The position numbers were made by a program, and so were the translations under genes. Positions 22,652 to 33,951 of a stretch of DNA of 33,951 nucleotides are shown here, one piece after another. Every line of letters begins with the position of its first letter. The first letter of the stretch is position 1. The DNA is from Bryobacteraceae bacterium. GTDB taxonomy: Bacteria; Acidobacteriota; Terriglobia; Bryobacterales; Bryobacteraceae. Below the pieces are notes generated by a model. That model made no database searches. It was not told the DNA's origin and was given only the letters and a program-made list of their open reading frames with translations. The stretch is from assembly GCA_017883415.1 (NCBI GenBank), contig JADGNR010000006.1, forward strand, positions 1 to 33,951, in the 5' to 3' direction.

Positions 22652-25600
22652 TCAATAGCACTGCACCGGCTGTTTATCTGCTTCTGCTTCCCGTTCCACC
22701 CTGCTGCGCTTCATCACGAAGTGCCACATCCAGGTTTCGTAGATGGCCGGATAGACCAGCAGCTCCAGCAGGAACGACGTCACGATGCCGCCGATCATCG
22801 GCGCGGCGATGCGCTTCATCACATCCGCGCCGGTCCCGGAGGCCCACATGATGGGCACCAGTCCCAGCATCATGGTGGCCACCGTCATGAACTTGGGCCG
22901 CAGCCGCTTGACCGCTCCGTGATGGATCGCCTCGCGCAACGCGGCCAGGCTGGTGAGCTCGCCGGCAAGCCGGGCCCGCTCGCAGGCCAGATCCAGATAC
23001 AGCAGCATGAAGATGCCGGTTTCCGCGTCCACGCCCAGCAGCGCAATCAGCCCGACCCACACCGCCACGCTGAGGTTATAGCCCAGCCAATACACCAGCC
23101 AGACCGCGCCAATGGCGGAGAACGGCACCGCCAGCAGCACGATCAAGGTCTTCGGCACCGACCGCGTGTTGGCGTACAGCAGCAGGAATACCAGCAGCAG
23201 CGTCACCGGCAGCACCAGTTTCAGCCGTTCCCGGACGCGCAGCATGGCTTCGTACTGTCCGCTCCACAGGACCGCATAGCCGGGCGGTAGAGCGACCTTC
23301 TCGCGCACCACGCGCGCCGCCTCTTCCACGTAAGTGCCCGGGTCGCGGCCTGCGATGTCCACATACACATAGCCGGTGAGCAGCCCGCCTTCGTCGCGCA
23401 CCATGGCCGGACCGCGCACGAAATGAATCGAGGCCAATTCGGCCAGCGGGATCTGCCGCCGCCCACCCGCGGCCGGCACCAGGACGCGGCCCACGGCATC
23501 GACATCGCTTCTAAAGTCGCGCAGGTAGCGCACATTCACCTGGTAACGTTCCCTGCCCCGGATCACGGTAGTGACGTTTTCCCCGCCCACCGCATTCTGC
23601 ACCGCGGTCTGCGCCTCGTCGATGCTCAGCCCGTAGCGCGCCAGCGTGTCGCGGTTCCATTCCACGTCCAGGTAGTAGCCCGAGCCGGTACGTTCGGCGA
23701 AAACGCTGCGGGTGCCGCGCACCGGCGCGAGCGCGCTTTCGATTTTCCCGCCCAGGTCCTCGATCACGCCCCAGTCCGCGCCGGAAACCTTCAGGCCCAC
23801 CGGCGTGCGGATTCCGGTGGTCAGCATGTCGATGCGGCCCTTCACCGGCATGGTCCAGGCATTCGACACGCCCGGCAGTTTGAGTGCGCGGTCCAATTCC
23901 GCCACCAGTTGTTCCTGCGTGTGGATGCCCGGCCGCCACTGCGATTTCGGCTTGAGCGTGATCACCGTTTCCAGCATGGACAGCGGAGCGGGATCGGTAG
24001 CCGTCTCCGCCCTCCCCGCCTTTCCGAAGACTTGATCGACTTCCGGGAAGCTGCGAATGATGCGGTCGGTCGACTGCAGGAGCCGCTGCGCCTCGCCGAT
24101 GGAAATTCCCGGCATGGTCGAGGGCATGTAGAAGAGCGTGCCCTCATCGAGCGGCGGCATAAACTCGCTTCCCAGCCGCATGAAGACCGGCACCGTCGCC
24201 AGCAGCAGCACCGCCGCGGCGCCCAGTACCAGCCATCGCCGCCGCAGGGTCCACCGCAGCGCCGGCTCATACACGCGCATCAGCGTGCGGCTGAGATAAT
24301 GGCTCTCTTCCTGACGCACCCGTCCGGCGAAGACGGTGGTGGCGGCTCTGGCCAGCCAGGCCGGGCGGAAGCGGAAACTGCCGAAGCGTGAAAGCATCAG
24401 CCGCAGCGCGGGATCGAGCGTGATGGCCAACACCGCCGCCACCACCATGGCCAGCGTCTTGGTGTAAGCCAGGGGCTTGAACAGGCGGCCTTCCTGCGCC
24501 TCCAGGGTCAGCACCGGAAGGAACGAGACCGCAATCACCAGCAGCGCAAAAAAGCTGGGGCCGCCCACCTCCTTCACCGCCGAGATGATGACGTCCCGAT
24601 AATCGCCCTGCCCGCCCGACCGCTCCCACTCCTCCAGTTTCTTGTGGGTCTGCTCCACCACCACAATGGCCGCGTCCACCAGCGCTCCTATGGCAATGGC
24701 GATGCCTCCCAGCGACATGATGTTGGCCGTGAGACCCAGCGCGCGAAAGGGCAGAAACGAAATCAACACCGCCACGGGAATGGTGATGATCGGGATCAGG
24801 GCGCTGGGCGCGTGCGCCAGGAACAGCAGGATCACCAGCGCCACCGTGATCGCCACCTCGATCAGCGTGGTCCGTAAATTCCCTATGGCGCGCTTGATCA
24901 GCTCGCTCCGGTCGTACACCGGAACGATCCGGACTCCGTCGGGAAGCCCCGGCTCGATCTGCTTGAGCCGCGCCTTCACGCGGTCGATCACCTCCAGCGC
25001 GTTCTCGCCCTGCCGCATGATGACGATGGCGCTCGCCACCTCGCCCGTGCCATTCAGATCGGAGACGCCGCGCCGTATGTCCGGCCCCACCACCACCTGC
25101 CCGATGTCGCGGATGCGAATGGGTGTGCCATCCTCGCTGGCCGTCAGCACGGTATTCTCGATATCGTGCCGGTCGCGGATGTACCCGCGGCCCCGCACCA
25201 TGTATTCGGTGCCCGAGAATTCGATCAGCCTTCCGCCCGTGTCGTTGTTGCCGCTGCGCACCGCCTCCACTACCCGCCCGATCGGAATGTCGTAGGCCTT
25301 GAGCCGGTTGGGATCGACATTCACCTGGAACTGCTGGGCGTAGCCGCCGAGCGGCGCCACCTCGGCCACTCCCGGCACGGCCTTCAGGTAGTAGCGCAGG
25401 TACCAGTCCTGATACGAGCGCAGGTCGGCCATGCTGTGTTTGCCGGAGGGATCCACCAGGGCGTATTCGTATACCCATCCCAGGCCGCTGGCGTCGGGCC
25501 CCAATTCAGTCGATACGCCTTGCGGCAGGCGCGGCAGCACCGAAGAAAGATATTCGAGCGTGCGCGAGCGCGCCCAGTAGATATCGGTGTCGTCTTCGAA

Positions 25601-25885
25601 GATGACGTACACGTAGGAATAGCCGAAATCCGAAAGGCCGCGCACCGTTTTGACCTTCGGCGCCCCGAGCAGGGCCGAGACGATGGGATAGGTCACCTGG
25701 TCTTCGACAATATCCGGGCTGCGGTCCCACCGCGAATAGATGATGACCTGCTTATCGCCCAGATCGGGGATGGCATCGAGCGGAACGCGATGGAGCGACC
25801 ACCAACCGCCTGCCGCCGCCACCGCCGCCAGAATGACCACCAGGAACCGGTTCCGCGCCGAGAACTCGATGATGCGGTTAATCAT
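22652..25885 (-). CDS. cusA: CusA-like heavy-metal RND efflux transporter
   Basis: 1077 residues, full family length. N-terminal MINRIIEFSARNRFLVVILA is the first membrane helix, followed by the porter region with IPDLGDKQVIIYSRW and GWVYEYALVD, as in CusA rather than CzcA. Later FMPPLDEGTLFYMPSTMPGI and AWTMPVKGRIDMLTTGI contain the Met-rich Cu(I)/Ag(I) relay region. Twelve membrane helices are expected, with an AIAIGALVDAAIVVVEQTHK helix carrying the proton-relay acids. It pumps Cu+/Ag+ from periplasm or cytoplasm through CusB to an outer-membrane channel. The 45-nt gap to cusB indicates an operon. The last codons are duplicated at 21343-21384. Confidence 0.92.
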   Translation of the reverse strand: MINRIIEFSARNRFLVVILAAVAAAGGWWSLHRVPLDAIPDLGDKQVIIYSRWDRSPDIVEDQVTYPIVSALLGAPKVKTVRGLSDFGYSYVYVIFEDDTDIYWARSRTLEYLSSVLPRLPQGVSTELGPDASGLGWVYEYALVDPSGKHSMADLRSYQDWYLRYYLKAVPGVAEVAPLGGYAQQFQVNVDPNRLKAYDIPIGRVVEAVRSGNNDTGGRLIEFSGTEYMVRGRGYIRDRHDIENTVLTASEDGTPIRIRDIGQVVVGPDIRRGVSDLNGTGEVASAIVIMRQGENALEVIDRVKARLKQIEPGLPDGVRIVPVYDRSELIKRAIGNLRTTLIEVAITVALVILLFLAHAPSALIPIITIPVAVLISFLPFRALGLTANIMSLGGIAIAIGALVDAAIVVVEQTHKKLEEWERSGGQGDYRDVIISAVKEVGGPSFFALLVIAVSFLPVLTLEAQEGRLFKPLAYTKTLAMVVAAVLAITLDPALRLMLSRFGSFRFRPAWLARAATTVFAGRVRQEESHYLSRTLMRVYEPALRWTLRRRWLVLGAAAVLLLATVPVFMRLGSEFMPPLDEGTLFYMPSTMPGISIGEAQRLLQSTDRIIRSFPEVDQVFGKAGRAETATDPAPLSMLETVITLKPKSQWRPGIHTQEQLVAELDRALKLPGVSNAWTMPVKGRIDMLTTGIRTPVGLKVSGADWGVIEDLGGKIESALAPVRGTRSVFAERTGSGYYLDVEWNRDTLARYGLSIDEAQTAVQNAVGGENVTTVIRGRERYQVNVRYLRDFRSDVDAVGRVLVPAAGGRRQIPLAELASIHFVRGPAMVRDEGGLLTGYVYVDIAGRDPGTYVEEAARVVREKVALPPGYAVLWSGQYEAMLRVRERLKLVLPVTLLLVFLLLYANTRSVPKTLIVLLAVPFSAIGAVWLVYWLGYNLSVAVWVGLIALLGVDAETGIFMLLYLDLACERARLAGELTSLAALREAIHHGAVKRLRPKFMTVATMMLGLVPIMWASGTGADVMKRIAAPMIGGIVTSFLLELLVYPAIYETWMWHFVMKRSRVEREAEADKQPVQCY
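22700..22741. repeat. Direct repeat in the 3' end of cusA (right copy)
   Basis: Partner of 21343-21384 with 39 of 42 bases identical (mismatches at 22706, 22714 and 22739). Together the repeats bracket the HNH-like/DUF433/DUF5615 island. The intact cusA continues 48 bp beyond this repeat to its stop. Confidence 0.75.
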
Positions 25886-25930
25886 GCCTTCCGCCGTTGG
25901 GGTGTGCCGTAGATTCGCTCATGCGGCCGA

Positions 25931-27388
25931 TCACCTCGCCGGCGTTCGGGTGGAGACTTCGCTCCGGCCCGCTACTTTCTTGAGATACATTCCCGGATTC
26001 TTTTCGAATTTCTCCTGGCACTGGCTGGAACAGAAGGAGTAATGTTCGCCGCCCGATTCGCTCTGGTGGGTGACCTTGGCCGCATCCAGGTCCATGCCGC
26101 ACACCGGATCTTTGGCCGGGTGCCCCGAGGCGCCGATGGCCGTCAGCCGCATCCGGCTTTCCGAATCCAGGAAGAAGTTGCCCGCCGTGACCACCCGCTC
26201 GCCCGGCTCCAGTCCCTTGACGATTTGCACCCGGTCGCCGAAACGCCAGCCCGTCTGGACCGCGCGGGGCTCGAACACTCCTTCGCCCCGCTCCACAAAC
26301 ACCTTCTCCTTCTGCCCCAGATCGAGAACCGCATCCGCCGGGACGGTGATCGCCGGGGGAAGCTGGATGGGCAATTCCACGTCCGCGAACATGTCGGGCC
26401 GGAGGGCGTAGTCGGCATTGTCCGCCTCCAGCCGGACCTTCAGAGTGCGCGAAACCGCGTCAAACTGCGGCAGAACCTCGGCCACCCGGGCGGAAAAGCT
26501 TCTTCGCTGCTGGTGCAAAGACACCTGCGCCACCGCTCCGGGGCGGAGGTAGGGCGCGTCATTCTCGAAGACGTCGGCCACAATCCAGATCTTGCGCAAA
26601 TCGGCAATGCGAAACCACTCCACGCCTCGCTCGTACTTCTGGCCCAGCGACGCGTTGCGCGCCAGCACGAAACCATCCGCGGGAGCCAGGATGCGCACCG
26701 TCACCGGGACCACGCGGGTACGCCTGAGCTCCTCGATTTGCAGCTCGGACATGCCCACGCTCTTCAGCCTCTCGATGGACAACCGGGTGCTCTCATCGCC
26801 CGCCCTGAGTTGCTCGGCAAGCTGTCCGGAGCGCGCCGCGCGGTCCAGCACGTCGAGCGTGGTCAGGTACGCCTGAATGGGCGCACGGGCATCAAACGAA
26901 AAAATTGTGGCCAGCCATTGGTCTTTCTTCACCAGGCTGCCCGTGGTTACGCCTGAAACCTCGCTGAGGTAACCATCGCTCGCCGCGTTCACCTTGTAGA
27001 CTCGTGTTTCGTCGGGTGTGACGCGGCCCAGCAGGCGTAGCGTTTGGCTACCGGAGGTCTTCTCCACCGGGCTCACGCGCACGCCGATACGCTGTTGCTT
27101 CTCGAGGTCGATCTTCATGGCGCCGGCGGGTTCGGTAGTGGAGCCATCCGCGCCACTGGCTGCCTCGCCGCCACCGGCATAGACCGCCTCCAGTTGCATG
27201 CCGCAGTCGGGTGCGATTCCCGGCTTATCGCTCCGGTAGGCGGGATGCATGGGATCCACGTAGTAAAGGACCTTCCGGGCACTCGCCGGGCGGTCCCCGG
27301 CTGAGGTGCGACGGGTGTACAAGGACCCGGCCAGAAACGCCCCCGCCAATGACAGGGTCAACAAAGCGATATATAGAGATTTCCTCAT
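25931..27388 (-). CDS. cusB: CusB-like periplasmic adaptor with HMBD and C-terminal YHS domain
   Basis: 485 residues. A membrane anchor or signal (residues 6-22) is followed by a heavy-metal-binding domain, YYVDPMHPAYRSDKPGIAPDCGMQLEAVY (about 42-70), then the adaptor core: a barrel-sandwich hybrid, hairpin and beta-barrel (VNAASDGYLSEV, ILAPADGFVLARNASLGQ, IWIVADVFENDAPYLRPG). The C-terminus (about 430-475) adds a YHS domain, DPVCGMDL with HYSFCSSQCQEKFEKNPGMYL, whose Cys residues bind metal. The adaptor links the CusA pump to an outer-membrane channel and delivers Cu/Ag. Metal sites at both ends are unusual and may hold metal for transfer between oxidase and pump. No cusC is visible. Confidence 0.9.
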   Translation of the reverse strand: MRKSLYIALLTLSLAGAFLAGSLYTRRTSAGDRPASARKVLYYVDPMHPAYRSDKPGIAPDCGMQLEAVYAGGGEAASGADGSTTEPAGAMKIDLEKQQRIGVRVSPVEKTSGSQTLRLLGRVTPDETRVYKVNAASDGYLSEVSGVTTGSLVKKDQWLATIFSFDARAPIQAYLTTLDVLDRAARSGQLAEQLRAGDESTRLSIERLKSVGMSELQIEELRRTRVVPVTVRILAPADGFVLARNASLGQKYERGVEWFRIADLRKIWIVADVFENDAPYLRPGAVAQVSLHQQRRSFSARVAEVLPQFDAVSRTLKVRLEADNADYALRPDMFADVELPIQLPPAITVPADAVLDLGQKEKVFVERGEGVFEPRAVQTGWRFGDRVQIVKGLEPGERVVTAGNFFLDSESRMRLTAIGASGHPAKDPVCGMDLDAAKVTHQSESGGEHYSFCSSQCQEKFEKNPGMYLKKVAGRSEVSTRTPAR

Positions 27389-27463
27389 GGCAGGCGCCTA
27401 TCGGTCAACGGTAATGTAACATCTTGCTCTCGTGTGATGGGTCCGCGCGGCCGCGGGATGAAG

Positions 27464-27495
27464 GGCCCCCCGGCTTGGCAAAGCGCCGGGGGGCC
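27464..27495 (-). terminator. Perfect GC-rich stem-loop between oxidase and cusB genes
   Basis: GGCCCCCCGGC (27464-27474) and GCCGGGGGGCC (27485-27495) form a perfect 11-bp stem with a 10-nt loop, 28 nt after the oxidase stop. There is no U-tract on the minus strand afterwards, so it may act as an mRNA stabiliser or partial terminator within the operon rather than a strong stop. Confidence 0.5.
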
Positions 27496-27523
27496 GTCGA
27501 ACGGGTCGATCCAGCCCGAGGAG

Positions 27524-29656
27524 TTACGGCACGATCGACCAGCCGAACATCATGGCGTGGTCTTCATGGGCCAGGTTGTGGCAGTGAGCGACATACGGAC
27601 CCACAAAGTCGCGGAATCCGCGGTAAATGAGCACGGACTCGTTCGGATCGAGCGCGACCAGGTCTTCCATCGAGATGTCATCCGGATGCCCCTTCGCGTC
27701 GGGAGGCCTGTTGCCCTGACGGAAGACACCATTCCGCGCGACGGTCTGGTGCTCCTCCATGTGCAGGTGGAACGGATGGACCCAGCCGCCGCCGCCGTTC
27801 TTGATTTCCCAAACCGCGAAGCTGTTCTTCTTCGGGTTGGCCAAGGACACGGTGGGGTCGAAGGGCCGTCCGTTGACCATCCACTCCAGTTCGGGGTTGG
27901 TGCTGGAACCGCCGCGCTGCACCTCGAACACCGGATGATTCGGAATCAGGGCTTCGATCTGGGCAGCGGGGTACGGCGGTAGTTCGCGCAACACCGGCGG
28001 GATCGTGCTGTTATCCACGGCGTTGTCGCCGATGACGAACTTCATGACCGGCACCTTGTAGGCCGGATCGAGCGCGAAGCGGCTCGAGTTGGTCCACATA
28101 CGGCCGTCCGGCATCTTCATGATGTTAGTCAGGTAGATGACGTCGCCCTTCCTGGTGGGTGACCCGTCCATATACTTAGAGAAGTCGACCACGATCTCCC
28201 GGCGCTTGGCCGGCCACACTTCAATCGAGTCGCGCACGATCGGACTGCTGAGCAGGCCGCCATCGACGGCGATCTCGGTGAACCTCATGCACTGCTGCCC
28301 GTCGAGGATGCGGTACTGTCCCTGCAACTCCGTATCCTGGTAATTAAGAGACGCCGCCGACTTCGGGCCGCCGGTCGAGGACATGAGCTTGAATTCGTAG
28401 ATCCGCGAGATGGAACAATCCAGCATGCGGAAACGATACTTGCGCCGCTTCACCTCGAGCATCGGGTACGCCGCCCCGTTCACGGTAAACACATCGCCCA
28501 CGAACCCGTGGTTCGGGAAGTGACGGAAGTAGGTCTTGCCCCACCATTCGGGGTGGATGGCAGGATCCCCGGAGAGTGGGTACTGGCCGTCGTGGAAATC
28601 GTGGTGGACGGTCACGCCGTCGTCCAGCCGGCAATCGTAGAAGCCCAGCGGGATGTCGTACTCGACCGAAAAGGTGCCGTCCGGGTTGTTGGTCCTGACG
28701 CCTGGCAGATGGAGTTTGCTGGTCGTCTCGTTCCCGTCATCGACGCCGGGTTCGTAAATGGGATAAAGCCCCACCATCCCCTTGTAGACATTGGCCCCGG
28801 TAAAGTCCATCTTGTGGTCGTGGAACCAGAAGAACGACTGACACTCCCTGGAGTCGCCACCAGCGGGCCAGTTGAGATAGAGGTTATCGCACCATTCCCC
28901 CGGCTGGTAGGCCTGCGGCCGGAAGTGCGGGTTGCCGTCGCTCTCCGGCGCCGTGTGGCCGTTGTGCAGGTGGGTCAGGAAGGTGTAGTCCGGAGCCCCG
29001 AAATCCTGGCGGTCCAGATTGTAGGGATTCTCGTCCAGGTGGTTTTCGAAGCGGACCAGGCACGGCTTCCCGTACTCGGCATTGATGCGGGTGCCGGTCG
29101 GAGGCAGTCCGTTGAAACCATAAACGGTGCTCTGCGGCAGGCTGCGTATCGTGCCCGCCGGGTAGGCCCTCTTGCTTTCATCGAAGGACTGCGTGGCCAG
29201 GCCGTGTGTGTCCATGGGCATCACCTTCAACGAGGTGAAGCTGGCCGGGCGAACCTGCAATTTGATCTGGTAGACCAGTGGGTCCGGAGAGCCAATTGTC
29301 GACGGCCAGATCTGGTGGGAGGCCGTCCCGTCCGAGCACTGCTGTCCGACGCCCGGTCCCGGGGGCTGGCTCCAGGTGCTGTATTCGCTCTTCGACACCG
29401 GGGCCAACACTTTCGGGATGGGTAACGGATCGGTGAACGCCGAGCCGACGACCTTGCCACTGCTGTTGACGCCGCTTCCTCCGATGAGCGGACTGATGGG
29501 AAAGACCTCGGTATAGATGTTGCCACCGCCGCCGCCACCGCCGCCAGTGTCTTGTCCGAACGTTAAATTGGGGCTGAGCAGCCCCAGACCGCCGGCCGAG
29601 ATTCCTAATTTCAGCAAGTCCCGCCGGTTTAGCTTGAGCGCGTTTTGATTATTCAT
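27524..29656 (-). CDS. Tat-exported multicopper oxidase
   Basis: 710 residues. The Tat leader has NRRDLLKLG (Arg11-Arg12) and a hydrophobic core ending near FGQD, followed by a Gly-rich linker. All four copper motifs are present: THLHNGH, FWFHDHKMD, HPFHLHMEEHQ and HCHNLAHEDHAMM (His691-Cys692-His693, His697, axial Met702). This binds one type-1 and a type-2/3 copper cluster, coupling oxidation of Cu+, Mn2+ or phenols to O2 reduction. Next to cusB-cusA it most likely detoxifies periplasmic Cu(I), like CueO, though it is larger and closer in layout to CotA/phenoxazinone-synthase-type oxidases. No Met-rich insert as in CueO was seen. It is the first gene of the metal cluster. Confidence 0.92.
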   Translation of the reverse strand: MNNQNALKLNRRDLLKLGISAGGLGLLSPNLTFGQDTGGGGGGGGNIYTEVFPISPLIGGSGVNSSGKVVGSAFTDPLPIPKVLAPVSKSEYSTWSQPPGPGVGQQCSDGTASHQIWPSTIGSPDPLVYQIKLQVRPASFTSLKVMPMDTHGLATQSFDESKRAYPAGTIRSLPQSTVYGFNGLPPTGTRINAEYGKPCLVRFENHLDENPYNLDRQDFGAPDYTFLTHLHNGHTAPESDGNPHFRPQAYQPGEWCDNLYLNWPAGGDSRECQSFFWFHDHKMDFTGANVYKGMVGLYPIYEPGVDDGNETTSKLHLPGVRTNNPDGTFSVEYDIPLGFYDCRLDDGVTVHHDFHDGQYPLSGDPAIHPEWWGKTYFRHFPNHGFVGDVFTVNGAAYPMLEVKRRKYRFRMLDCSISRIYEFKLMSSTGGPKSAASLNYQDTELQGQYRILDGQQCMRFTEIAVDGGLLSSPIVRDSIEVWPAKRREIVVDFSKYMDGSPTRKGDVIYLTNIMKMPDGRMWTNSSRFALDPAYKVPVMKFVIGDNAVDNSTIPPVLRELPPYPAAQIEALIPNHPVFEVQRGGSSTNPELEWMVNGRPFDPTVSLANPKKNSFAVWEIKNGGGGWVHPFHLHMEEHQTVARNGVFRQGNRPPDAKGHPDDISMEDLVALDPNESVLIYRGFRDFVGPYVAHCHNLAHEDHAMMFGWSIVP

Positions 29657-30309: not shown

Positions 30310-31122
30310 CTAGAACCGGGCGGCGTACTCCGGGGATGATAGGAAGGCGCTAACAAGGTCGCTCAGCGGCGTGCCGGACTGCAATCGAGCGGTCCAGCGC
30401 TCCATGCCTGCGGCATCGCCCGACCGCCGCAGGAACGCCAGGAAGGCCAGATTCGCGTTCACCCGGTTGTCGATCAGCATGTCGAATTCCTGGCTGGTGA
30501 GCACCTGCTGGAACACTTCGGCGCGCGCCTGGCCCCGATCCAGCTTCGCCCGCAAGGAATCAACTTCCTCGGCATTCGGTCCTCTGCGTAGCAGGCTGTG
30601 AAAGAGCGTCTCCAGGAAGACGGCATCGCTCATGCTCTGGGGATACGCCGCGGCATATTCCGGCGTCCGCAGGAAACCCGCGAGCACCGTTTCCTCCATG
30701 ATGCCGGCCCGCATCAGTTTCAAGATCTGGGACCAGCCGGTGAAGTCCGGATCGCGCCGCATGATGGTCAGGTAGCACTTCACCACGTAAGCGGCGTTGT
30801 CGCGGAACTCCGGGGCTTGAAACAGCTCCGTGACGACCCCCGCACGTGTGGATTTGTCCGTATTGAGCGCAGACAGGTAACCTTCCACTTCGCTGGCGCT
30901 GACCGCGCGGCCATAAAGGTCCTGGAACAAGCGATTCAAGAGGATGTCGTCGGCCACCACGGCGCGGCCTCCGGCTGGGACCACGCGCAGCGCGCTCCCC
31001 CCGGCCGTGTCGTCCGCCGCGAAGGCAGTCTTGGCGGCGCTGGCCGGGATCGGGCCAGCCGCCCGGAGCGATCCTGAAGCTACGAAAACGCTGAGCGCGA
31101 ATATCAACTGCAAGTTCTTCAT
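30310..31122 (-). CDS. Exported DUF4214-family protein, copy A
   Basis: 270 residues with a signal peptide (MKNLQLIFALSVFVASGSLRAAG). The mature part is four tandem helical units of about 47-50 residues, each of the form VxxLYxxLxxRxPDxxGxxxWxxxLxxGxxxxxVxxxFLxSPEF. Examples are LFQDLYGRAVSASEVEGYL, CYLTIMRRDPDFTGWSQIL, LFHSLLRRGPNAEEVDSL and AFLRRSGDAAGMERW with the end SPEYAARF. DUF4214 is distantly related to the phycobilisome-linker fold and occurs in secreted and surface proteins, with no settled function. Closely similar to copy B at 32621-33424, with the same leader sequence before it. Confidence 0.82.
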   Translation of the reverse strand: MKNLQLIFALSVFVASGSLRAAGPIPASAAKTAFAADDTAGGSALRVVPAGGRAVVADDILLNRLFQDLYGRAVSASEVEGYLSALNTDKSTRAGVVTELFQAPEFRDNAAYVVKCYLTIMRRDPDFTGWSQILKLMRAGIMEETVLAGFLRTPEYAAAYPQSMSDAVFLETLFHSLLRRGPNAEEVDSLRAKLDRGQARAEVFQQVLTSQEFDMLIDNRVNANLAFLAFLRRSGDAAGMERWTARLQSGTPLSDLVSAFLSSPEYAARF

Positions 31123-31238
31123 GCTCGTCCTTGCCTCACGGGCCGCGTTGGAGCGGCGCTGTTAGACACTTTGCCAGGGGGCGTGGGCCCACAGGAGGAG
31201 CCCAAATAGGATCTGTCAGAGCATGCCTATACCGTTAA
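31123..31238 (-). promoter_or_regulatory. Conserved leader of DUF4214 copy A
   Basis: Shares three blocks with the leader of copy B at nearly the same distances from the ATG. The first is TTAACGGTATAGGC (31225-31238, 103 nt upstream) and the second CCCTGGCAAAGT (31168-31179, 46 nt). The third is a GCCGC/GCGGC hairpin (31142-31157, 20 nt) followed by a TGAGGC element. TATAGG inside the first block could be a -10 box. Sequence between the blocks is not conserved, which argues for function rather than recent duplication. Confidence 0.55.
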
Positions 31239-31668
31239 TACGATTAGGCCTTAAGGGGATTTCGCGGTATGGAATCGTTGCTTATACGGCGGCACCAACG
31301 TTGCGGTGGCGTGAGGCGCCGAATCAGGCGCCCTACTCGCACTGGCCCGGGTGGGGCGGCAAGGCGCAGTCCCGGGCGATGCGATACAGCAGCAACCTGA
31401 TTTCTATTTTCATTTTCTTGCCTCTTCTGTCGCGGAAAACTTCTCGCGACTTAACCGCTAATGCACGGTGATCGCCATCGGCGACCCTGTTGCTGCCGGC
31501 AGGACCGCAACCGTAACTGGCCAAATGAGTTGTGCGAGAATGCGGCAACTACGCCAGGCTACTCCCGCTGGCGGAAACGCGAGACGGCTGCGGAAAATGC
31601 AGGTCTTGGCACGGAATGAGCAGGTTTTGCAGCGCCACCGCCCCGGCACGCGAGGCCTCCCCTGAACG

Positions 31669-31785
31669 CCCCGCCAGAAATGCGCCCACCAGGCCGCTCA
31701 CCGGCACGCCGGACTGCAAGGCGGCGGTCCAGCGCTCGATGCCCGCGGCATCGCAGCACGACCAAGGCGCCAAGGCCTTGAACAG
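31669..31785 (-). pseudogene. Decayed DUF4214 3'-end fragment
   Basis: The minus strand encodes DAAGIERWTAALQSGVPVSGLVGAFLAG (31669-31752), matching the end of copies A and B (DAAGMERWTARLQSG, LQSGVPVSDLVGAFLAS). Similarity continues weakly to about 31785. The left part resembles copy B and the right part copy A, so it is a separate paralog relic. It stands between the copy A leader and the PEP-CTERM gene. The rest of 31239-31956 shows no gene. Confidence 0.75.
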
Positions 31786-31836
31786 GAGGCCCATATCCTA
31801 AAAGGTGCTCTCTTTTCCTCGTGGCTGCAAACGTCT

Positions 31837-31869
31837 GGGGTATAAGGAGTTTAACATGTTAAATACCCC
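31837..31869. promoter_or_regulatory. Nested inverted repeats upstream of the PEP-CTERM gene
   Basis: A perfect 14-bp palindrome TTTAACATGTTAAA (31850-31863) is enclosed by GGGGTAT (31837-31843) and ATACCCC (31863-31869). It lies about 88 bp before the ATG at 31957 and is AT-rich compared with its surroundings, which fits an operator for a dimeric repressor or activator. No regulator gene is nearby. Confidence 0.45.
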
Positions 31870-31956
31870 TTTTAGCGGCGCGTTCTTACGCTTATCGCGA
31901 GTAGAGTGAATCGAGCAAAGGCGGACCGGCGGTGTCGATCCGCGAATGGAGGACTC

Positions 31957-32571
31957 ATGTTACGCTACGCTTCGATTGTACTGGCTCTTTCGCTATGCAG
32001 CGGGCCGCTACGCGCCAACTCGCTAGTGGTCAACGGCAGTTTTGAGGATCCCGCGTCGAATGGATCCCCATCTCTCGGCCTTGGTTCCACGTATCTGACC
32101 GGCTGGACTGTTATAGATGCTGAAATCGCCCAACTCCGCAACGTCGATTTCCCATTATTATTTCCTTCCGACGGCACCTACTCGCTGGATCTCACCGGCT
32201 ACCACGACGGTACACCCTGGGGCGGTGTCGAACAAATCATCGCCACGATTCTCGGCGCTACCTATGCTATCCACTTCGATACTAGAGGCACCACCGCTGT
32301 GACCGTCTCGGCCGGCGACCTCCATGCCGTCGGGTCAGGCACCGGCCAAGACTGGACCACCTACAACGGGTTTTTCACTGCCCTGGACAGTTCCACAACA
32401 ATCTCGCTTATCGGCCTGACCGGCGGGAACTACATCGGCCTGGACAACGTCATCGTCAACCTGGATCACTTGGCCAGCACCGTTCCCGAACCGGGCACGA
32501 TTTGGATGATTGCCAGCGGCTTGGTGCTGGCTGGGCTTGGTCGTGTTCGCAGATTTCCTGCGCGGCGCTGA
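31957..32571 (+). CDS. PEP-CTERM-anchored choice-of-anchor C/DUF642-like protein
   Basis: 204 residues from ATG 31957, preceded by TGGAGGA. Signal peptide MLRYASIVLALSLCSGPLRA, then a beta-sandwich domain: NSLVVNGSFEDPASNG, LTGWTVIDAEI, DGTYSLDLTGYHDG, GGVEQIIATILGATYAIHFD and IGLDNVIVNLD, the pattern of DUF642/choice-of-anchor C proteins, often carbohydrate-binding. The C-terminus VPEPGTIWMIASGLVLAGLGRVRRF is a complete PEP-CTERM sorting signal: the VPEP motif, a hydrophobic helix and a basic tail. It implies processing by an exosortase elsewhere in the genome and export to the surface or EPS. It lies between DUF4214 relics and copy B, on the opposite strand. Confidence 0.88.
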   Translation: MLRYASIVLALSLCSGPLRANSLVVNGSFEDPASNGSPSLGLGSTYLTGWTVIDAEIAQLRNVDFPLLFPSDGTYSLDLTGYHDGTPWGGVEQIIATILGATYAIHFDTRGTTAVTVSAGDLHAVGSGTGQDWTTYNGFFTALDSSTTISLIGLTGGNYIGLDNVIVNLDHLASTVPEPGTIWMIASGLVLAGLGRVRRFPARR

Positions 32572-32620
32572 TCTGGTTGAAGGGCGAACACCGCTGGCGG
32601 GCGCGGGCTTGAGCGGCAGA

Positions 32621-33424
32621 CTAGTACCTGGCGGCGTACCCCGGGGATGCCAGAAACGCGCCCACCAGATCGCTCACCGGCACGCCGGACTGCAAAGCCG
32701 CCGTCCAGCGCTCCAGGCCGGCGGAATCGCCGCCCCGCTGCAGGAAGGCTAGGAAGGCCAGATTCGCGTTCACCCGGGCGGCGATGTGCGCATCGAACTC
32801 GGGGCTGGTGAGCATGCCCTGCAGCACTTCGGCGCGCGAACCGCCCTGGTCCAGCTTCGAGCGCAAGGAATCCACTTCCTCGGCATTCGGTTCCCGCCCC
32901 ACCAGGTTGTGATACACCGCCTCCAGGAAAGCCGCATCGCTCATGCTCGCCGGATACGCCGCGGCATATTCCGGGGTGCGCAGGAAAGCCGCGAGCACGG
33001 TGTCTTCCATGGTGCCGGCGCGCATCAACTTGGAGATCTGCGCCCAGCCGGTGAAGTCCGGGTCGCGCCGCATGAGGGTCAGGTAGCACTTCACCACGTA
33101 GCCGGCGCTGTCGCGGAATTCCGGGGCGTTAAACAGCGCGGCGACGATCTCCGCGCGTGAGGTGGTGCCGGCATGGAGCTCGGCCAGGTGGCTTTCCACC
33201 TCGCTGGCGATGGGAGAGCGGCCATAGAGGTCCTGAAAGACCCGGCTCAGGAAGACGTCGTCGGCCACGCCGGCGCGGGTGCGCCCGCCAGCCACGGCGG
33301 TTCCATGGGTGGGAACGTTCGCTGCAACGGCGGTCTCGATGCTGCTCTCGTTCGCACCGGCCGCCAAAAGGGATCCGGAAGCTACGAAGAAGGCGACCGC
33401 GGTGATCAGCTGGAAGTTTTTCAT
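32621..33424 (-). CDS. Exported DUF4214-family protein, copy B
   Basis: 267 residues from ATG 33424, the start that aligns with copy A (MKNFQLITAVAFFVASGSLLAAG); an upstream in-frame ATG at 33469 falls inside the conserved leader block and is rejected. Four helical units are visible at about residues 58-104, 108-155, 166-212 and 220-267, ending in NAPEF, RTPEY, TSPEF and ASPGY. The segment YVVKCYLTLMRRDPDFTGWAQI is nearly identical to copy A, whereas the linker after the signal peptide (22-55) is variable. This suggests a conserved scaffold with a changing N-terminal spacer. Function unknown; extracytoplasmic scaffolding or adhesion is a guess. Confidence 0.83.
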   Translation of the reverse strand: MKNFQLITAVAFFVASGSLLAAGANESSIETAVAANVPTHGTAVAGGRTRAGVADDVFLSRVFQDLYGRSPIASEVESHLAELHAGTTSRAEIVAALFNAPEFRDSAGYVVKCYLTLMRRDPDFTGWAQISKLMRAGTMEDTVLAAFLRTPEYAAAYPASMSDAAFLEAVYHNLVGREPNAEEVDSLRSKLDQGGSRAEVLQGMLTSPEFDAHIAARVNANLAFLAFLQRGGDSAGLERWTAALQSGVPVSDLVGAFLASPGYAARY

Positions 33425-33541
33425 TCCCGTCTTGGCCTCATGGGGCCGCCCTTCAGCGGCTCTGTACAACTTTGCCAGGGTGGCGGGGCCAAGAAGTTAT
33501 GGAAATGTGAAGGAAATGTAAAAACGAGCCTATACCGTTAA
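33425..33541 (-). promoter_or_regulatory. Conserved leader of DUF4214 copy B
   Basis: Carries TTAACGGTATAGGC (33528-33541), CCCTGGCAAAGT (33469-33480) and a GCCGC/GCGGC hairpin (33445-33460) at 104, 45 and 21 nt from the ATG, matching copy A within one nucleotide. The remaining gap to 33649 holds no gene. Confidence 0.55.
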
Positions 33542-33649
33542 AACAATAGGACCTTGCGGGTTTCCACGGTCTATATTCCGTGTTACTACGGTGTGGGGCG
33601 GACCCCGGTCCGCGCGGGTCCCCCTGGACCCGCTCCCCGCTCGAAGGAC

Positions 33650-33951
33650 TCAGAACCGGGAGACGTACCCCGGAGAGGCAACGAAGGCGCCCACCAGGTC
33701 GCTCACCGGTGTGCCGGACTGCAGAGCCGCGGTCCAGCGCTCCAGGCCGGCGGAATCGCCGCCGCGCCGCAGGAACGCCAGGAAGGCCAGATTCGCGTTC
33801 ACCCGGGCGGCGATGTGCGCATCGAACTCGGGGCTGGTGAGCACGCCCTGCAATACTTCGCCGCGCGCCCCGCCCTGGTCCAGCTTCGAGCGCAGGGAAT
33901 CCACTTCCTCGGCATTCGGTTCCCGGCCCAGCAGGTTGTGATAGACCGCTT
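33650..33951 (-). CDS. DUF4214-family protein, copy C, 5' part outside window
   Basis: The frame is open to the right edge, and the visible 100 residues cover the last two helical units: AVYHNLLGREPNAEEVDSL, LTSPEFDAHIAARVNANLAFLAFLRRGG, DSAGLERWTAALQSGTPVSDLVGAFVASPGYVSRF. It is closer to copy B than to copy A, including the identical FDAHIAARVNANLAFLAFL. It shows that the array of same-strand DUF4214 genes continues beyond the window. The start, leader and N-terminus cannot be judged. Confidence 0.82.
   Translation of the reverse strand, partial: AVYHNLLGREPNAEEVDSLRSKLDQGGARGEVLQGVLTSPEFDAHIAARVNANLAFLAFLRRGGDSAGLERWTAALQSGTPVSDLVGAFVASPGYVSRF

Follow-up and report, generated by a model that had tools for sequence, protein, structure and literature searches.

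Two DUF4214 genes of a Bryobacteraceae bacterium are preceded by short blocks of identical sequence at nearly fixed distances from the start codons, which raises the question of whether these blocks belong to a promoter or to a regulatory RNA. The stretch of DNA analysed here (the window, 33,951 nucleotides) is the whole of contig C466 of a 5.84-Mb draft genome (G000). Copies A and B both have hydrophobic signal-like N-termini and repeated DUF4214 domains, and a fragment of a third copy is also present (Table 1). Between A and B lie a short degenerate remnant of a DUF4214 C-terminus (31666-31755; 30 aa, 80% identity), which suggests that a further copy was lost, and a gene for a PEP-CTERM secreted protein on the plus strand (31957-32571). 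Downstream of copy A (22652-29656), a CusA-like RND pump, a CusB-like adaptor with a heavy-metal domain and a 710-aa multicopper oxidase are encoded. An ortholog search in a collection of 84,980 species found G001, a metagenome assembly from the Terriglobia (Acidobacteriota), as the only genome of the same genus.

Table 1. Features of the DUF4214 genes and their leaders in the window.
Feature	Position	Strand	Description
DUF4214 copy A	30310..31122	-	270 aa; signal-peptide-like N-terminus
DUF4214 copy B	32621..33424	-	267 aa; 67% identical to A
Third DUF4214 copy	33653..33949	-	C-terminal 99 aa; leader beyond contig end
Block 1 of copy A, TTAACGGTATAGGC	31238-31225	-	ends 103 nt from ATG
Block 1 of copy B, TTAACGGTATAGGC	33541-33528	-	ends 104 nt from ATG
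Block 2 of copy A, CCCTGGCAAAGT	31179-31168	-	46 nt from ATG; probable extended -10
Block 2 of copy B, CCCTGGCAAAGT	33480-33469	-	45 nt from ATG; probable extended -10
Hairpin of copy A, GCCGC-N6-GCGGC	31157-31142	-	20 nt from ATG
Hairpin of copy B, GCCGC-N6-GCGGC	33460-33445	-	21 nt from ATG
Operator of copy B, TTTACA-N5-TTCACA-N5-ATAACT	33495..33522	-	three 11-bp direct repeats; predicted OmpR-type
Decayed operator of copy A	31192..31219	-	CTGACAGATCC kept; repeats 2 and 3 lost
Dyad of copy B, CCGTAGTAACACGG	33578..33591	-	CSGTA-N4-TACSG type, upstream of block 1; candidate second operator
Degenerate dyad of copy A, CCGTATAAGCAACG	31276..31289	-	from leader alignment

Conservation in the leaders of the DUF4214 genes

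According to the original prediction, the leaders of A and B share a 14-nt block (block 1), a 12-nt block (block 2) and a hairpin, and all of these were found exactly in place on the minus strand. The two leaders are 56% identical over an alignment of 214 columns. Its two longest uninterrupted matches span 14 and 12 columns, and the probability of such a pair by permutation of the columns was P = 0.0003. Conservation is uneven, therefore, and not the uniform divergence by which recent duplication had been expected to reveal itself; the hairpin, however, is private to A and B. In genome-wide searches, exact matches to block 1 were found only at A and B, and neither block was enriched over the reversed control (12 matches against 24 for block 1 with up to two mismatches, and 15 against 16 for block 2 with up to one mismatch).

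Six leaders from the two species were compared, namely those of A, B and C, the last being an N-terminal fragment on contig C218 of G000, and those of the G001 genes D, E and F. They align over about 130 nt. Block 2 reads CCTGNCAAAKT in all six. Block 1 is exact in A and B, nearly so in D, E and F, and degenerate in C; it is a conserved upstream element whose role the promoter model described below leaves unexplained. The stretch TTTACA-N5-TTCACA-N5-ATAACT (the box) was present with zero mismatches at the searched positions in five of the six leaders, in which it is the best-conserved stretch, followed by block 2, and it has been lost in A. The majority conservation per 10 columns was 0.83-0.90 in the box and 0.82-0.85 in block 2, and fell to 0.28-0.60 on the 3' side of block 2, where a Shine-Dalgarno sequence is conserved directly after the block. 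This pattern indicates constraint on promoter DNA and not on a transcribed leader, and as the six leaders are paralogs and orthologs from only two species, the conservation is partly due to shared descent. Divergence between the blocks, as originally described, holds for A against B only: the box lies there, and A has lost an element that the other five leaders keep.

The conserved sequence extends beyond block 1 on its upstream side and includes a dyad, CSGTA-N4-TACSG, which in copy E reads CGGTACAACTACCG, with both arms changed. Perfect dyads of the form CSGT-N6-ACSG were found in the window (that of copy B), in L059 (4818-4831) and in L078 (1771-1784). They sit upstream of DUF4214 genes and just before a multicopper oxidase gene of G001, and are possibly a second operator.

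The shared features had been read as possibly a cis-regulatory RNA. On such a reading, transcription would start close to block 1, and the transcript, about 100 nt long, would control the family through a hairpin ahead of the ribosome site. The fixed distances at which the three features lie in A and B fit this reading, and block 1 (GTATAGG/GTATAAG) resembles a -10 element in some copies. However, the hairpin is absent from four of the six leaders, in which block 2 lies only 15-21 nt from the ATG, and its stems are identical in the two leaders that have it, the covariation term being about 0. The leader RNAs were no more stable than shuffled sequences (z-scores of -0.5 to 1.7), folding of the alignment gave no supported structure, and the Rfam search returned no match at gathering or permissive thresholds, even up to E = 1. 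Together with the drop in conservation past block 2 and the occurrence of the box as a DNA element before unrelated genes, as shown in the next section, these results make an RNA leader very unlikely.

The box before other genes

A relaxed three-repeat pattern gave 7 matches in G000 and 10 in G001, against 0 and 1, respectively, in the reversed controls, and several of the matches sit at orthologous positions in both species. In one conserved pair, the boxes separate a sugar transferase gene from that of a CopR-like response regulator; another pair precedes a di-haem cytochrome c peroxidase. Further boxes are in front of, or next to, the genes of HisKA_3 kinases and multicopper oxidases and an NRAMP gene. 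Boxes on contigs C59 and C107 of G001 and C146 of G000 (L070, L078, L103, L189) precede a number of paralogous HisKA_3 kinases and adjoin multicopper oxidase and NRAMP genes; the window, too, encodes a multicopper oxidase, downstream of copy A. A box on G000 contig C509 and the pair C409/C157 were dropped as sites because they lie within coding sequence, where conservation proves nothing.

These matches bear on whether the blocks are common only through the recency of the copies and have no regulatory meaning. All copies are indeed paralogs or orthologs from two species of one genus, and blocks 1 and 2 were not found elsewhere. Nevertheless, boxes in front of unrelated genes are far more frequent than in the control, and the leaders are unevenly conserved, so that we regard a mere footprint of duplication as extremely improbable, the least probable reading considered here.

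A sequence-only model of the box added the pair C267/C170, located before the gene of a winged-helix protein of 126 aa that lacks a receiver domain. When 41 relatives were scanned with this model, a box was found in other genera, too, before this winged-helix gene and before the sugar transferase named above. Orthologs of the winged-helix protein, collected by protein search alone and therefore independently of the DNA, occur in many genomes of the family. A perfect two-repeat box was found before 19 of 25 of them, and in 17 of these 19 promoters TANNNT, mostly TAGNAT, lies exactly 20 nt after the third repeat. The ATG of the winged-helix gene follows the -10 by only 6-10 nt in some genomes, which suggests that the transcripts there may be leaderless or near-leaderless. 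The full pattern (box-N20-TANNNT) gave 64 matches, spread over 48 of the 121 genomes of the family, and none in the reversed control. By our own count, the winged-helix gene directly follows 42 of the 63 distinct sites, about two thirds; the remaining sites are followed by genes for secreted or exported proteins, kinases, sugar transferases and others. At other boxes TANNNT has this spacing in only 5 of 14 cases. No box was found in the scanned stretch of distant DUF4214 genes (G046, G018 and C605), a weak negative result with most of the starts uncertain or off the contig.

The predicted promoter of the DUF4214 genes

The three 11-bp direct repeats most likely represent the arrangement typical of OmpR/PhoB-family operators, judging from their sequence. 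Tandem direct repeats with a period of about 11 bp, the mark of such operators, were found in five of the six leaders, and the evidence on the side of binding is one of association only, the box preceding a Trans_reg_C (winged-helix) gene. Proteins of the OmpR/PhoB family bind to direct repeats as tandem dimers. For PhoP of M. tuberculosis, the motifs are 7 bp long and separated by 4 bp, and trimers bind them as well (PMC4832192); the resulting 11-bp period is that of the DUF4214 leaders. The repeats resemble the known operators in this period, in their number of two to three copies and in their position upstream of a probable -10, but differ in the half-site (TTTACA/TTCACA), in the main linked regulator, which has no receiver domain, and in the gap of 20 nt between box and -10. 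In E. coli, the distance from the end of a Pho box to the -10 is about 10 nt. A Pho regulon was rejected, as no box was found around phoU in the loci of G000 and G001 that the search covered; the putative targets here encode secreted proteins, kinases, oxidases and a regulator. The CopR/CusR heavy-metal response regulators (TIGR01387) are linked to the box by the conserved pair described above and by the several boxes near multicopper oxidases, but the -10 of the CopR-linked box is at 10-11 nt, not 20, and the CopR-like regulator scored 253 bits against TIGR01387, below the curated cut-off of 279 bits.

In all five box-bearing DUF4214 leaders, CAAAGT or CAAATT (CAAAKT) follows the third repeat at 20 nt (33474-33469 in copy B), in the context TGNCAAAKT. 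The preceding TG is an extended -10 feature, and the hexamer varies only at the least constrained -10 positions. However, CAAAGT scores poorly on the -10 matrix made from the winged-helix promoters, and N20 is not the best-scoring offset. From the spacing and the TG context on the one hand and the poor score on the other, block 2 is only probably an extended -10, and a weak one. A sigma-54 promoter (GG-N10-GC) was rejected, because in no copy is the GG of CTGGCA followed by GC at a distance of 10 nt.

The poor score also favours another arrangement, in which the core promoter would lie elsewhere in the leader, with the box serving as a repressor operator or block 2 as a further, degenerate half-site pair in the 11-bp register (CTGGCA-N5-TNAACA). 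Block 2 is in phase with the first repeat, at 44 and 55 bp from it, and copy F has CTGACA-N5-TTAACA. Yet a core promoter at block 2 better fits the conserved Shine-Dalgarno sequence that directly follows the block and the N20 spacing in common with other promoters, and the columns that vary within the block are the least constrained ones of an extended -10. We consider this arrangement unlikely.

The reading that we prefer, with a probability of roughly 0.7, is a promoter that depends on an activator and leaves only a very short leader; the secreted DUF4214 paralogs would have this promoter in common through duplication. A tandem OmpR/PhoB-type winged-helix protein would bind the three repeats, centred near -48, and from just upstream of the core promoter would recruit RNA polymerase to the weak extended -10, TGNCAAAGT, in block 2. 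Transcription is predicted to start about 7 nt past the -10, so that most transcripts would begin at or just before the Shine-Dalgarno sequence, with no room for a regulatory RNA. The original prediction of a common promoter is supported by the six leaders, aligned over about 130 nt in two species, with an OmpR-type operator and a probable -10. Control of the whole family together, as also proposed, is likely wherever the box has been kept, but copy A, in which two repeats are lost, is predicted to be uncoupled and has probably escaped.

A receiver-less winged-helix protein as candidate regulator

The winged-helix protein of G000 (G000:C267:2497-2874; L099, L128; entry to 2961) is encoded behind a box-N20-TAGCAT promoter and is likely an autoregulator. 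The best matches to its domain are PhoB DNA-binding domains. As both the box and the N20 spacing are present in its own promoter, it is the best candidate for the cognate regulator of the DUF4214 box, an assignment that we make tentatively and at somewhat less than even odds; that an OmpR-type regulator of some kind acts on this box is highly probable. Six genomes (G006, G011, G022, G028, G040 and G046) contain the promoter pattern with no winged-helix ortholog found at E<=1e-20, and thus another OmpR-type protein may bind such boxes. The genomes also encode other OmpR-type regulators.

A small single-domain regulator with a box and a fixed N20 across a family is apparently undescribed; in a literature search, DUF4214 was mentioned in only four papers, and nothing was found on such a regulator in Acidobacteria. 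More doubtfully still, a receiver-less OmpR-type protein, autoregulated through a rigid box-N20-TAGNAT promoter throughout the family, might control an envelope or secreted-protein regulon that was extended in one genus to a growing number of secreted DUF4214 paralogs. The supposed RNA element gives way to a transcription-factor site that can be tested. For these abundant, poorly characterised soil bacteria, the analysis also provides a candidate regulator and a predicted promoter class (box, 20-nt gap and TAGNAT) with about 20 predicted non-self targets.
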